Source of the DNA: Arcanobacterium sp. S3PF19
Lineage (GTDB): Bacteria; Actinomycetota; Actinomycetes; Actinomycetales; Actinomycetaceae
Direction of reading: 5' to 3'
DNA: 64,000 bases
Assembly (NCBI RefSeq): GCF_000758825.1
Contig: NZ_JRMX01000014.1
Span: forward strand, 1 to 64,000
The translations under genes were made by a program, and so were the position numbers. The notes under the pieces were generated by a model that was given only the letters and a program-made list of their open reading frames with translations, had not been told where the DNA came from and ran no database searches. Positions 36,888-45,772 of this stretch are shown here, one piece after another (position 1 is the first letter of the stretch; each line of letters opens with the position of its first letter).

Positions 36888-37787
36888 TCATTTCATCCAC
36901 AGTATCAGCGCAAACGAAATCGAGCCCAGCACCGATACCGGCAAGGTTGCGTAGCAGAGCAGCGCGGCAAGTGTTTTTGAAAATTCGGCGTTTGTCTGCT
37001 GCTGCATTTCAAACACCCGAACCGCGTCTTCTATTGCGGGGAAAGAGTGGCGCGTGAGCAGATATGCACCGGCCGTCAGAAGCCCGATGCACAGCCCCAC
37101 CGCCGGAGAGAAACTGAGCAGCAGCGAAAAACCGATTCCCGACACGATCCCGTTCACCACGCCCAATGCCATTGACGAGCGGGAATCCAGAGCGGAAATA
37201 ATTGCCACGATTGCCGAAGTGGCGGCAAAGCAGATCGATATTCCGCAGCCCTCATCTTCCGTGGCGTTAAAATGCCATAAAGCCACGGAAATTATCAGCA
37301 GCATCCCCAGATAGGTGGAGGAAATCTGTTCCAGGCGCCGAACGGCGGACGCGCTGCGCAGCATTTCCGAAAGAAACACCGTCACGATTCCGACCGCAGC
37401 CAAAAACGGCAGAAAATTTTTTTCGGTCAGCACCATGATCAGAGAAACCACATAGATGGCAGACAGACTGATTCTGGAAGCGGCGGGATTGGGAATCCGC
37501 AGCAGTTCCGGCCAGCCGATAACTACGGTCAGCCCCAAAAGCGCCACGGTTAAAATAAGAATCCAATTTCGAAATCCCACACCGAGGGCCGGCAGCACAG
37601 CCGAGATAACTCCGATAATTCCCGTGATCAGAGAGGGAATCGGGTTGTAGAGACTGTGCGTGAACGACCGGTCCGCATCGGATTGACGTGTTTCGCGCGA
37701 AGGTGTGGGCGAAGGATTATGTTTATCTGTCACAATCAAATTGTGCCATGCACCGCCGCAAAGAGCACCTAAAGAAAGAAAAAACAC
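36888..37787 (-). CDS. Unrecognised integral membrane protein (about seven or eight helices)
   Basis: 299 residues from GTG 37787. The N-terminus is hydrophilic (DKHNPSPTPSRETRQSD), preceded by a short hydrophobic segment. Helices include SLITGIIGVISAVLPALGVG, WILILTVALLGLTVVIGW, ISLSAIYVVSLIMVL, FLAAVGIVTVFLSEML and AVGLCIGLLTAGAYLL. I do not recognise the family; it may be a permease-like actinobacterial protein. The start is uncertain, since no SD precedes GTG 37787 or the GTG at 37733. A candidate promoter (TTGTTG-18-AATTAT at 37826-37797) puts transcription within about three bases of GTG 37787, consistent with a leaderless mRNA. A DeoR-like site lies further upstream. Confidence 0.6.
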   Translation of the reverse strand: MFFLSLGALCGGAWHNLIVTDKHNPSPTPSRETRQSDADRSFTHSLYNPIPSLITGIIGVISAVLPALGVGFRNWILILTVALLGLTVVIGWPELLRIPNPAASRISLSAIYVVSLIMVLTEKNFLPFLAAVGIVTVFLSEMLRSASAVRRLEQISSTYLGMLLIISVALWHFNATEDEGCGISICFAATSAIVAIISALDSRSSMALGVVNGIVSGIGFSLLLSFSPAVGLCIGLLTAGAYLLTRHSFPAIEDAVRVFEMQQQTNAEFSKTLAALLCYATLPVSVLGSISFALILWMK

Positions 37788-37841
37788 AGCTTTGAAATAA
37801 TTTTAGCCCAAAACCCGGCTCAACAATGAGCAAAATCAGGC

Positions 37842-37856
37842 GCACGTTTGTGCACA
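37842..37856. promoter_or_regulatory. Candidate operator, exact copy of the deoC upstream site
   Basis: GCACGTTTGTGCACA (contains GCAC-N4-GTGC and the palindrome TGTGCACA) recurs on the other strand at 42204-42218. It lies between the divergently oriented membrane-protein gene and small-RNA promoter, 40 bp upstream of the latter's -35. Confidence 0.55.
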
Positions 37857-37895
37857 TTTTCCCGCAGCGCACGGAATACGTGCGTCTAAAATATC

Positions 37896-37924
37896 TTTAC
37901 ACGGGGCACAAATCCGGCTAACGT
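37896..37924 (+). promoter_or_regulatory. Sigma-A-like promoter of the small RNA
   Basis: -35 TTTACA at 37896-37901, a 17-bp spacer, and -10 TAACGT at 37919-37924. The expected start of transcription is about 37931-37933, just at the first base of the closing helix. Confidence 0.6.
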
Positions 37925-37931
37925 ATCTATT

Positions 37932-38079
37932 AGGACGTCAGGTCACGGAAGCCCCGGGCTCCAATAATTTGCCGCTACGAGCGGCCTTCGCGCCGACAGG
38001 CGCTCTCGGATCTGATGTCCGTAAACTTCACGGGGGCTGTGCATTTCACAGCCCCCGTTGCCTTACTTATTTTATTTTT
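37932..38079 (+). ncRNA. Candidate small RNA, multibranched, with own promoter and terminator
   Basis: No plus-strand gene lies here, yet promoter, structure and terminator all point the same way. GGACGTCAGGTC (37933-37944) pairs with GATCTGATGTCC (38009-38020) over 12 bp including G-U pairs. Inside are three local hairpins: GGAAGC..GCTCC (37947-37962), GCCGCT-ACG-AGCGGC (37971-37985) and GCGCC-GACA-GGCGC (37990-38003). A 12-bp terminator hairpin follows at 38030-38058 with a U-rich tail. I do not recognise the fold: it lacks the GGAAGCAGCC-type loop of SRP RNA, the C-rich loops of 6C RNA and known riboswitch signatures. It probably acts in trans, or its 3' tail overlaps the end of deoK. Length about 148 nt. 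Confidence 0.6.
38030..38079 (+). terminator. Intrinsic terminator of the small RNA
   Basis: 12-bp stem starting ACGGGGGCTGTG with a CATTT loop, then a tail ending TTATTTTATTTTT on the plus strand. The minus strand after the hairpin (GTGAAGTTTACGG) has no U-tract, so it is oriented for the plus-strand RNA and not for deoK, whose stop lies inside the tail. Confidence 0.85.
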
Positions 38080-39007
38080 CCGGCCCGTCCGCTTCTTTGA
38101 GTTTTTCCGTAAACTGGGCAGCCGTCGCATAGGAAGTCTGCGTTCCCCGCTTCGTCACGGAATCCGCGGCATACATATTTGCCATCCGCAGCGCATACTC
38201 CACATCGCCGGTTTTGCACAGGTAATGACTGAAGCAGCCGATAAATGCGTCTCCCGCACCCGTAGTATCCTGCGCATCAACCTCCATGCCGGGAACAAAC
38301 AGATCACGGTTTCGGTTCACCCACAGCACTCCGCGGGCGCCCAAAGTCACGATCACATTTTTCATCCCCGATTTCAGCAAAGCCGATGCGGCGTTGCGGA
38401 TATCATCCAGAGAATCGACAGGCATTCCGGTCAGCAGTGACAGCTCACTTTCATTGGGCACAAAATACTCGCACCCGCATACCTCATCAAGAATCAGATC
38501 GGGCTGAGCCGGCGCAGGATTCAGCAGCACGGGAATGCCATGCTTATTCCCGAAGCGGATCGCCGCATAAACAGTTTCCGGCGGTACTTCCAGCTGCAGC
38601 ACAATCAGGCCGCACTGTTTTATGTCTTCGGCAGCTTCATCAATATCGGCAGGCGAAAGCATGGCATTCGCACCTTTTACGATAATAATTGAGTTATGCG
38701 AGTCCGGATCAACAAAAATAGGCGCCACACCCGAAGTTGCTTCCGTACGCAGCACATACTTTGTACTGATAGAATTCGCCGCAAAATTACGGATCGTATT
38801 TTCCGCAAACATATCGTTTCCCACACGGGTCAGCATCAGTACGCGAGATCCCAGACGGGCAGCGGCAACAGCCTGATTCGCTCCCTTTCCTCCGCATCCC
38901 ATTCTGAAATCGGGAGCCTCAACCGTCTCTCCTTCCTTTGGCATCCGGTTTATGTAAGAAATTAGATCGACCATATTTGATCCGATTACCGCGATATCCA
39001 TAATCAC
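38072..39007 (-). CDS. deoK: Deoxyribokinase/ribokinase (PfkB family)
   Basis: 311 residues. PfkB signatures are GCGGKGANQAVAAARLG near the N-terminus and DTTGAGDAFIG near the C-terminus with the catalytic Asp. Context (deoC, DeoP and DeoX genes directly upstream) makes 2-deoxy-D-ribose the likely substrate rather than ribose; sequence alone does not separate DeoK from RbsK. The start overlaps the deoX stop by four bases. It is the last gene of the deo operon. Confidence 0.85.
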   Translation of the reverse strand: MIMDIAVIGSNMVDLISYINRMPKEGETVEAPDFRMGCGGKGANQAVAAARLGSRVLMLTRVGNDMFAENTIRNFAANSISTKYVLRTEATSGVAPIFVDPDSHNSIIIVKGANAMLSPADIDEAAEDIKQCGLIVLQLEVPPETVYAAIRFGNKHGIPVLLNPAPAQPDLILDEVCGCEYFVPNESELSLLTGMPVDSLDDIRNAASALLKSGMKNVIVTLGARGVLWVNRNRDLFVPGMEVDAQDTTGAGDAFIGCFSHYLCKTGDVEYALRMANMYAADSVTKRGTQTSYATAAQFTEKLKEADGPEK

Positions 39008-43444: not shown

Positions 43445-44062
43445 ATGAGTAAATTCAGCGGCGGCAAAGCTATTTTCCGCCTCTTTTCCGAACAGGCAGA
43501 CCATCTGCAGACCGCAGCCGACGCACTTACCCTGGTTGCAAACGCAACCCCCGAAGAACGGGTTGAACTGAACGCCAAACTTCATAAAATCGAAAACAAA
43601 GCCGATGAGGCCAGCCACGCCGTACAGCACTTAATCAACAAAAGCTTCGTACTCCCCTATGACCGAATTGATCTGTTTACGCTCTGTCAGACCATCGACG
43701 ACTGCGTAGACCTGATTGACGAGGCCGGCGACAATATGGTGCTCTACAAAGTCGGGGAACTTCCCCGGGGCGCACACAAACTGGTCCAGATCATTTCCGA
43801 ATGCGCAGCCGCAACCACGCAGGCCATGCACCGCCTGAACAAGCTGGACGACACCATGCGCGCCTACTGGGTGGGAATCAACCAACTGGAGAATCACGGC
43901 GACACCGTATACCGCAGTCTGATTTCCGACCTGTTTTCGGCAGACGGACACCCGATGGAACTGCTTAAAATGAAGTTCGTGATCGACAAACTGGAATCGG
44001 CCATCGACCGTTTCGAGCATCTTGCCGGAGTCGTAGAATCCATTGCACTCAAGGAATCCTAA
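43445..44062 (+). CDS. DUF47/PhoU-like Pit accessory protein
   Basis: 205 residues, all helical, of the DUF47 (TIGR00153) family (LNAKLHKIENKADEASHAVQHLINKSF; then LPYDRIDLFTLCQTIDDCVDLIDEAGDN). Such proteins are almost always encoded beside Pit transporters and are thought to regulate them. The stop overlaps the pit ATG by one base (TAATG). GGAGAG precedes the start. Confidence 0.9.
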   Translation: MSKFSGGKAIFRLFSEQADHLQTAADALTLVANATPEERVELNAKLHKIENKADEASHAVQHLINKSFVLPYDRIDLFTLCQTIDDCVDLIDEAGDNMVLYKVGELPRGAHKLVQIISECAAATTQAMHRLNKLDDTMRAYWVGINQLENHGDTVYRSLISDLFSADGHPMELLKMKFVIDKLESAIDRFEHLAGVVESIALKES

Positions 44063-45060
44063 TGACACTTACTTTAGCTCTGGTTCTCACAGTTATTTTT
44101 GTGGCCCTGGCATTTGATTTCACAAACGGGTTTCACGATGCCGCAAACGCAATCGCCACTTCGGTTGCCACCCGGGCACTGACTCCGCGCCAGGCCCTGT
44201 TCATGGCGGCGGTAATGAATTTTATCGGCGCACTGCTCGGAACGGGAGTTGCCGAAACCATCGGATCCGGAATTATCGGCCCTCCGCAGGACAATCACGG
44301 CTTAATTATTGTTCTGTCCGGACTTGTCGGGGCGGTTGTCTGGAATCTGATTACATGGTGGTTCGGTCTGCCTTCCTCTTCATCCCATGCCCTGATCGGC
44401 GGGCTGATGGGGGCGGGTTTCTCCGCATCTGCGGATGTATTTTGGGGAGTAATCGGAATGAAAGTCGTAATTCCGATGTTTCTTTCCCCGTTTATCGGGT
44501 TCACCCTGGCATTTATTTTCATGAAAATTGCGCTTTACATCTGCAGAAACTTCACATACAAACGCACAATGCGCAACTTTCGCCATGCCCAGACGCTGTC
44601 GGCGGCACTGATGGCACTCGGCCACGGACTGCAGGACGCGCAGAAAACAATGGGCGTGATCGTACTCGCGCTCATTGCCGGCGGCTACTGGCATGAAACG
44701 GGTATCCCCACCTGGGTAAAAATATGTGCGGCAAGCGCAATTTCGGCAGGCACATGCACAGGCGGATACCGAATCATGAAAACTCTGGGGCAGAAAATAA
44801 TTGATCTCGATCCCGCCCACGGGTTCGTTGCCGAGGGTGTGGCGGCGTCTGTGCTTTACACCACCGCTTTCCTCTGGCATGCTCCGATTTCAACCACGCA
44901 CACAATTACTTCCGCAATTATGGGCGTGGGGGCAACCACCAGAAAATCCGCGGTACGCTGGGGAATAGCGGGAAATATCGTTGGGGGATGGTTCCTCACG
45001 ATCCCCGCTTCCGCCGCAGTATCCATCATCACTTACGGTTTGCTGCACGGTATCGCATAG
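44062..45060 (+). CDS. pit: Low-affinity inorganic phosphate transporter (PiT family)
   Basis: 332 residues, about ten helices. The duplicated PiT signature is present at both ends: FTNGFHDAANAIATSVATRALTP near the N-terminus and PISTTHTITSAIMGVG near the C-terminus, with SSSHALIGGLMGAG between. It imports phosphate with H+ or Na+. It is translationally coupled to the DUF47 gene and followed by a strong terminator at 45083-45117. Confidence 0.95.
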   Translation: MTLTLALVLTVIFVALAFDFTNGFHDAANAIATSVATRALTPRQALFMAAVMNFIGALLGTGVAETIGSGIIGPPQDNHGLIIVLSGLVGAVVWNLITWWFGLPSSSSHALIGGLMGAGFSASADVFWGVIGMKVVIPMFLSPFIGFTLAFIFMKIALYICRNFTYKRTMRNFRHAQTLSAALMALGHGLQDAQKTMGVIVLALIAGGYWHETGIPTWVKICAASAISAGTCTGGYRIMKTLGQKIIDLDPAHGFVAEGVAASVLYTTAFLWHAPISTTHTITSAIMGVGATTRKSAVRWGIAGNIVGGWFLTIPASAAVSIITYGLLHGIA

Positions 45061-45151: not shown

Positions 45152-45772
45152 CTATTCCAGATTTCCCGCCGTCAGCATCTCACCGGCAGCCTTAAACTCG
45201 CGTGCCGTGCGCAGCATAGCCATATTTCTCCGCGTCACTTCGGTTGCCAGCGGATGGGTATCCTCGGTAATCCATACGGGCGCAACAGTGGCCGTAAAAT
45301 CCGTGAAACGCGCGGACATACGCAAAACTTCGGCAAAATCCCCGCGGAAATTACCCTTAAAAACTTCGTCCCACTGCGCCTTCACCGTTTCCGGACGGGG
45401 AACGAGGGAAATGCGCTGCGGATCGGCGGTGGCAAAAAATGCGGAAGCGGCAGCAAAACGCTGCTCCGCATCCGAAAAATCGCGGCGGGTCCATTCGCGC
45501 AGCAGAAATCCGCGCCACAGAATTCCCGGCAGCGTCTCAGCCGGGGATTCTGCCCAAAAATCGGCGAGCGCATCAACCCCTTCTTCGTCGATCAACAGGC
45601 TTACACGCGCAATTACTTCTTCGGGCACCGCCTGAGCCGTTGGCAGGGGAACTACCGCCTGCGCTCCGGCATGGGCCAATTCGCTGCTGTAGGCAATATC
45701 CACGCCTCCCTCAATCAGATCAATCTGACCCGGTTTCAGCTGTGCGGGACGCCGCGGCCGATAGCGATTCAT
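45152..45772 (-). CDS. Hypothetical protein, conserved-looking actinobacterial
   Basis: 206 residues, soluble, no signal peptide, no recognised domain. It begins with a basic segment (MNRYRPRRPAQLKPGQIDLIEGG) and is otherwise acidic and helical. The stretch FWAESPAETLPGILWRGFLLREWTRRD suggests a folded domain. It stands alone between convergent pit and the plus-strand tRNA-Lys gene. I cannot assign a function. Confidence 0.6.
   Translation of the reverse strand: MNRYRPRRPAQLKPGQIDLIEGGVDIAYSSELAHAGAQAVVPLPTAQAVPEEVIARVSLLIDEEGVDALADFWAESPAETLPGILWRGFLLREWTRRDFSDAEQRFAAASAFFATADPQRISLVPRPETVKAQWDEVFKGNFRGDFAEVLRMSARFTDFTATVAPVWITEDTHPLATEVTRRNMAMLRTAREFKAAGEMLTAGNLE

Follow-up and report, generated by a model that had tools for sequence, protein, structure and literature searches.

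The window analysed here is a 64,000-nt stretch of DNA from Arcanobacterium sp. S3PF19, to which all coordinates refer. A reading of its sequence alone had proposed an unannotated small RNA at positions 37932–38079 of the plus strand, running at its 3′ end into a convergent kinase gene. The features of the locus, as they stand after comparison with homologs, are as follows.

37896–37901, plus strand: putative −35-like hexamer TTTACA, identified by sequence; absent from the promoter scan list and not conserved at the −35 in homologs
37919–37924, plus strand: −10 box TAACGT (TANNNT), identified by sequence; a box lies at the matching position in homologs
37933–38020, plus strand: conserved RNA core of ~88 nt; matched at 37930–38023 by our second covariance model, R2 (80.1 bits); alignment A5 of 132 homologs
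37933–37951, plus strand: 5′ strand of closing helix P1 with its extension; covariation at 17 of 17 tested pairs of P1 plus extension
37952–37963, plus strand: near-invariant motif CCCCGGGCUCCA, predicted to be unpaired; mean column entropy 0.23 bits versus ~1.0 in P1
37971–37985, plus strand: hairpin P2, GCCGC-UACGA-GCGGC, with a YNCGA pentaloop by loop counts; 99.7% of cells paired
37991–38002, plus strand: hairpin P3, CGCC-GACA-GGCG; 99.6% of cells paired; loop counts given below
38003–38020, plus strand: 3′ strand of P1, supported by covariation
38030–38079, plus strand: terminator-like hairpin (stem 38030–38041/38047–38058) with a delayed U-rich tail TTGCCTTACTTATTTTATTTTT; a genus-level feature outside the conserved RNA
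38072–39007, minus strand: convergent kinase ORF (deoK in the sequence-only reading), matching ribokinase TIGR02152 and overlapping the end of the RNA transcript by 8 nt

The region 37932–38079 is predicted to fold on the plus strand at −72.5 kcal/mol, against −44.3 ± 3.8 kcal/mol for dinucleotide shuffles (z = −7.3), in agreement with the branched fold originally described. The reverse strand folds almost equally well, and the strand is therefore not given by stability alone. Both hexamers of the proposed promoter are present at a spacing of 17, but the pair scores only 8 of 12 to consensus and was missed by a mechanical scan; to judge from their position, the window RNA would start near 37930–37933. 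The terminator originally described is also present and has a 12-bp stem and a U-rich tail on the plus side only; the tail is delayed and the mechanical scan does not list it, but genus relatives have clearer terminators at the matching position. The proposed length of ~148 nt holds only as a genus-level extension, as the RNA conserved more widely is only ~88 nt long and conservation stops at ~38020. Among the 132 homologs, a hairpin followed by a T-run is clear at the 3′ end in 15 and a T-run directly follows P1 in 14, with neither recognisable elsewhere. The predicted 3′ end of the RNA does overlap the kinase ORF, by 8 nt. We note that the kinase scores above the NCBIfam cut-off for ribokinase TIGR02152, yet is encoded beside deoC and a fucP-like permease gene.

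Conserved fold

The 12-bp closing helix originally proposed (37933–37944/38009–38020) is present, and every one of its pairs covaries across the 132 homologs. A covariation analysis of alignment A5 (132 sequences) that assumes no fold again finds the long closing helix and extends it by two pairs, 37950–38004 and 37951–38003. The latter is G-C in 85 sequences, A-U in 32, C-G in 2 and U-A in 1, and is paired in 91%, with double changes numbering 35. The sequence-only reading had three inner hairpins; those at 37971–37985 (P2) and 37991–38002 (P3) are backed by the comparison and the one at 37951–37959 is not: only 70% of its cells pair, the pair 37951–37959 that it needs fails in 40 of the 132 homologs and the covariation partner of 37951 is 38003. 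Within this first hairpin, the inner C-G pairs show zero variation among homologs and hence are uninformative for covariation. From the covariation of 37951 with 38003 and the failure of 37951–37959 it follows that the predicted fold is a three-way junction, in which a long P1, P2 and P3 are arranged around the near-invariant unpaired strand CCCCGGGnnCCA. For the window sequence the energy model favours the alternative with the first inner hairpin by ~5 kcal/mol, and the two forms could therefore exchange in the window RNA.

The revised structure has 26 pairs, with both sides changed in 19, and its covariation score of 0.359 compares with 0.171 for shuffles and at most 0.092 for slid controls. 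In the nine strong P1 pairs, G-U occupies 139 cells and A-C only one, which identifies the plus strand as the RNA strand. The core is far less variable than the helix that closes it. Column entropy is ~0.23 bits over 37952–37963 and both hairpins and ~1.0 bits in P1, although some of this invariance may reflect ascertainment, since the pattern scan described below required parts of the core. In P2, a single C-G pair is swapped for U-A or A-U in 14 of the 132 sequences. The P3 loop is of the GNRA type (GAGA, GUGA or GCGA) in 94 of 132 homologs and is GACA in the window.

Distribution, promoters and neighbouring genes

Searched as DNA with BLAST, the RNA finds a match in all 39 genomes examined (its own and 38 relatives from the genus, the family Actinomycetaceae and the order), mostly one per genome and over the same core; genome G028 matches weakly by BLAST and clearly with the covariance models. 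A first covariance model, built from 30 homologs, matches 173 of the 346 genomes drawn from the class Actinomycetes. R2, which was built from 132 homologs and the revised structure, raises this to 219 of 346, including all 34 from the order to which the window belongs, usually as a single copy. Of 396 genomes drawn from the whole phylum, 31 match, all of them Actinomycetes, and those drawn from its other classes give no match. Named genomes were also covered by a pattern scan that required parts of the core motif, and among the matches listed are Bifidobacterium, Actinomyces, Cellulomonas, Brevibacterium, Rothia, Kocuria, Microbacterium, Nocardioides and Propionibacteriaceae, together with Jiangella, Modestobacter, Rhodococcus, Williamsia and [Mycobacterium] manitobense. 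One further RNA-bearing genus was assigned to Streptomyces by its carrying the Streptomyces family Scr4115. On these sequence matches, the RNA appears to be a family common to most of the class.

Two types of promoter element precede the RNA. The motif GGAAY-N16-19-GTT, beginning at −42 to −30, is found in 32 of 131 homologs, where 0.11 would be expected from shuffling and 0.13 from the background rate at the same loci. Its carriers include Streptomyces, Rhodococcus, Williamsia, Microbacterium, Agromyces, Georgenia, Cellulomonas telluris and others, and three plasmid copies outside the set of 131, located independently of it (from Rhodococcus fascians and two Gordonia), have GGAAT-N18-GTT. Promoters of SigR have the N18 spacing and resemble those of SigH and SigE. 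In Streptomyces, SigR is the sigma factor for disulfide stress and has GGAAT as its −35 and GTTG as its −10 sequence (PMC5005934). Of the 99 homologs without the GGAAY-type element, 85 have TANNNT at −17 to −8. Most homologs thus carry one or the other element (TANNNT or GGAAY-N18-GTT) at a set distance, as befits a stand-alone small RNA, and the comparison of sequences shows the RNA to have a predicted promoter of its own, resembling those of sigma-A in most lineages and those of SigR/SigH in several. By the GGAAT-N18-GTT criterion, the 32 of 131 homologs and the three plasmid copies would belong to a SigR/SigH regulon and the RNA gene of the window would not, its arrangement being sigma-A-like rather than SigR/SigH-type.

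The genes beside the RNA differ from lineage to lineage. Many Actinomycetales have the RNA near genes that, from reading their proteins, we take to encode DUF47, a PiT transporter, PstB and polyphosphate kinase; the names DUF47 and inorganic phosphate transporter are also given in one annotated record. At 24 of 132 loci the RNA is followed by a same-strand DUF47 gene, and genus relatives have the DUF47–PiT genes where the window has the deo operon. Convergent genes follow the RNA at many loci: the deo operon in the window and, elsewhere, pst genes, the gene of an uncharacterised protein of ~200 aa, or others in Rhodococcus-like genomes, where the RNA has WhiB or carboxylase-like genes next to it. 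The Streptomyces RNA is flanked by genes that we take to be homologs of SCO2952 (helR) and SCO2951 (malic enzyme), and at two loci (L061 and L062) it is directly downstream of this presumed helR, the gene of an RNA-polymerase-recycling helicase.

The gene of the ~200-aa protein adjoins the RNA at 76 of the 132 loci and in most cases turns its 3′ end toward the RNA (e.g. L160, L105 and L025). The protein family has a conserved segment, RAAAFCRVVAxGRA, and no Pfam, NCBIfam or significant PDB match. The window has a member at 45152–45772 (minus strand) and a PiT-like gene at 44062–45060, ~6–7 kb from the RNA with the deo operon between. As a dedicated partner of the RNA this protein was rejected, being absent from Streptomyces, Rhodococcus-like and most other sampled RNA-bearing genomes outside its clades. 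Since no single gene stays adjacent, the neighbourhood argues for an RNA that is stand-alone and would act in trans.

Class-wide homologs, covariation, the G-U bias of the plus strand, the conserved promoter position and the outcome of the Rfam searches given below agree with the original proposal of an unannotated small RNA gene on this strand, and leave us in little doubt that a real, conserved, stand-alone structured RNA is encoded here.

Relation to known RNAs

An Infernal search of the whole window against Rfam 15 returns only four tRNAs at the gathering score, consistent with the earlier failure to recognise in the RNA any of SRP RNA, 6S, 6C, tmRNA or common riboswitches. A permissive scan of 37700–38200 gives two chance-level matches and nothing relevant at E ≤ 10, and no Rfam model matches at the RNA in the homologous loci scanned. 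The best plus-strand match below threshold, a faint one over the full length, is to the Streptomyces small RNA Scr6106 (RF02827), and its 18.7 bits (gathering score 52.5; E = 7.8) are what chance would give.

Three known actinobacterial RNAs invite comparison. The small RNA 6C likewise has exposed runs of C; in 6C, these are carried by two stem-loops with six or more C (PMC8388888). In the new RNA, a junction strand carries the C run, and the hairpins end in YNCGA and GNRA loops. None of the homologs scanned reaches the 6C gathering score with Infernal, which places the RNA outside that family. Ms1, ~300 nt in length, resembles the new RNA in being a widespread, stand-alone, structured RNA of actinobacteria and in binding a core machine, as we propose below for the RNA described here, which differs from it in being a compact three-way junction of ~88 nt. 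Ms1 (scr3559 in Streptomyces) is structurally related to 6S RNA (PMC9130861).

The third is scr2952, listed in PMC8388888 (after Vockenhuber 2011) as an expressed small RNA of Streptomyces coelicolor. The Streptomyces members of the new family lie between the presumed SCO2952 and SCO2951 homologs. Going by its number, scr2952 may be placed near SCO2952 as well, and one Streptomyces member may be scr2952 itself. Should the two be identical, a transcript is on record for a single species, with the class-wide family undescribed in the sources searched. Rfam has no model that scores meaningfully at the Streptomyces loci, and the Rfam families tried as scr2952 turned out to be LPR10, Scr4115 and Scr6925. 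A text search of the literature for the motif sequence found nothing. Small structured RNAs are thus familiar as a kind, and this family and its breadth appear to be undescribed in the sources searched.

Possible function and alternatives

The comparison of sequences indicates an RNA that keeps its structure while its neighbours change. It would accordingly be expected to act in trans, and its working part is probably the invariant core, 37951–38003. The near-invariance of both core helices and of the unpaired strand suggests, at the level of sequence, that the core makes specific contacts with a conserved molecule, and with no obligate neighbour protein this points to a partner found throughout the class, in the machinery of transcription, translation or RNA decay. 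As this partner we propose a conserved protein or ribonucleoprotein, such as RNA polymerase, the ribosome or a decay or chaperone protein, on which the core would dock. Such docking seems more likely than base-pairing with one mRNA only, because P1 varies freely as long as it is paired, while little change is seen in either strand of P2 and P3 or in the C-rich strand. Lineages that have the SigR/SigH-type promoter would produce the RNA under thiol-oxidative or heat stress. Taken as a whole, the mechanism of a free-standing, trans-acting RNA with an invariant core that binds a conserved partner and with promoters that are stress-responsive where they are of the SigR/SigH type is the one we favour, tentatively and with confidence a little short of even. 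A bolder version, in which a near-universal RNA of Actinomycetes docks like 6S or Ms1 on a central machine and has been put under the SigR/SigH thiol-stress regulon by several lineages, is more doubtful, and we would not at present expect it to be correct in full.

The most serious competitor is an RNA that acts by base-pairing in trans. C-rich small RNAs of Gram-positive bacteria pair with G-rich translation start regions, and the exposed C-rich CCCCGGGnnCCA could pair with such regions of mRNAs and block their translation. An invariant, unpaired C-rich strand is what this explanation predicts, and a stand-alone gene with its own promoter, of stress type in some lineages, suits it equally. 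Simple pairing, however, has no need of the P2 and P3 stems, which are also near-invariant, and the nn dinucleotide differs between lineages. Furthermore, the 13 other sites in the window's own genome that are complementary to CCCCGGGCUCCA with one mismatch lie mostly inside genes and none is at a start region. We consider pairing of this kind possible, but less probable than the docking mechanism. An action in cis is harder to maintain. The RNA might be a leader or riboswitch-like attenuator, for example of the DUF47–PiT phosphate transporter operon; its invariant junction is aptamer-like, DUF47 follows on the same strand at 24 of the 132 loci and some genus relatives have a terminator. But the RNA is complete in itself, its closing helix being followed directly by a T-run in some members, and a convergent next gene, in the window and in many homologs, is not the arrangement of a riboswitch or other 5′ leader. 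The many convergent neighbours rule out a leader of the phosphate operon as a general explanation, and make any such role improbable.

Antisense control of the deo operon through the 3′ end of the kinase gene, which had been raised as a possibility on account of the convergent arrangement and the 8-nt overlap in the window, did not survive the comparison. The overlap occurs only where the deo operon adjoins the RNA; in relatives, phosphate or other unrelated genes take that place, and in those of the genus these are the DUF47–PiT genes. Because the overlap is peculiar to the window's lineage, and with the conserved RNA ending at ~38020, short of it, we regard this explanation as very improbable. 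Hardly any weight can be given either to a DNA-level element, that is, a site of recombination, replication or protein binding. Strong inverted repeats and additional copies on plasmids would be in keeping with one, but the 139 G-U against 1 A-C in P1 reflect selection on one strand, as RNA, and the promoters are conserved at a fixed distance.

Among the Actinomycetes are bifidobacteria of the gut, actinobacteria of skin and soil, producers of antibiotics and pathogens of animals. The absence from Rfam of an RNA that is class-wide, mostly single-copy and as constant in its core as the housekeeping RNAs is an unusual gap. With the conserved motif, the corrected structure and the stress-type promoter, the RNA can be tested directly in laboratory species such as Streptomyces or Bifidobacterium.

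We also note several departures from the usual single copy. Some genomes have three copies (G115 and, by the first model, G299), and one (G247) has a tandem pair 182 nt apart (L068, 3819–3904 and 4001–4086) with a GGAAY-type promoter on each. Further copies are found in L243 (IMGVR_UViG_3300045259_000046, from a viral collection) and L246 (MT835541.1, an unverified phage record), both possibly mis-assigned bacterial DNA. Others lie on a 754-kb Arthrobacter replicon (L245) and on the large plasmids of Rhodococcus fascians and the two Gordonia (L244, L247 and L248); the Gordonia plasmid copies have genes for a WhiB and a ribonuclease-like protein nearby.
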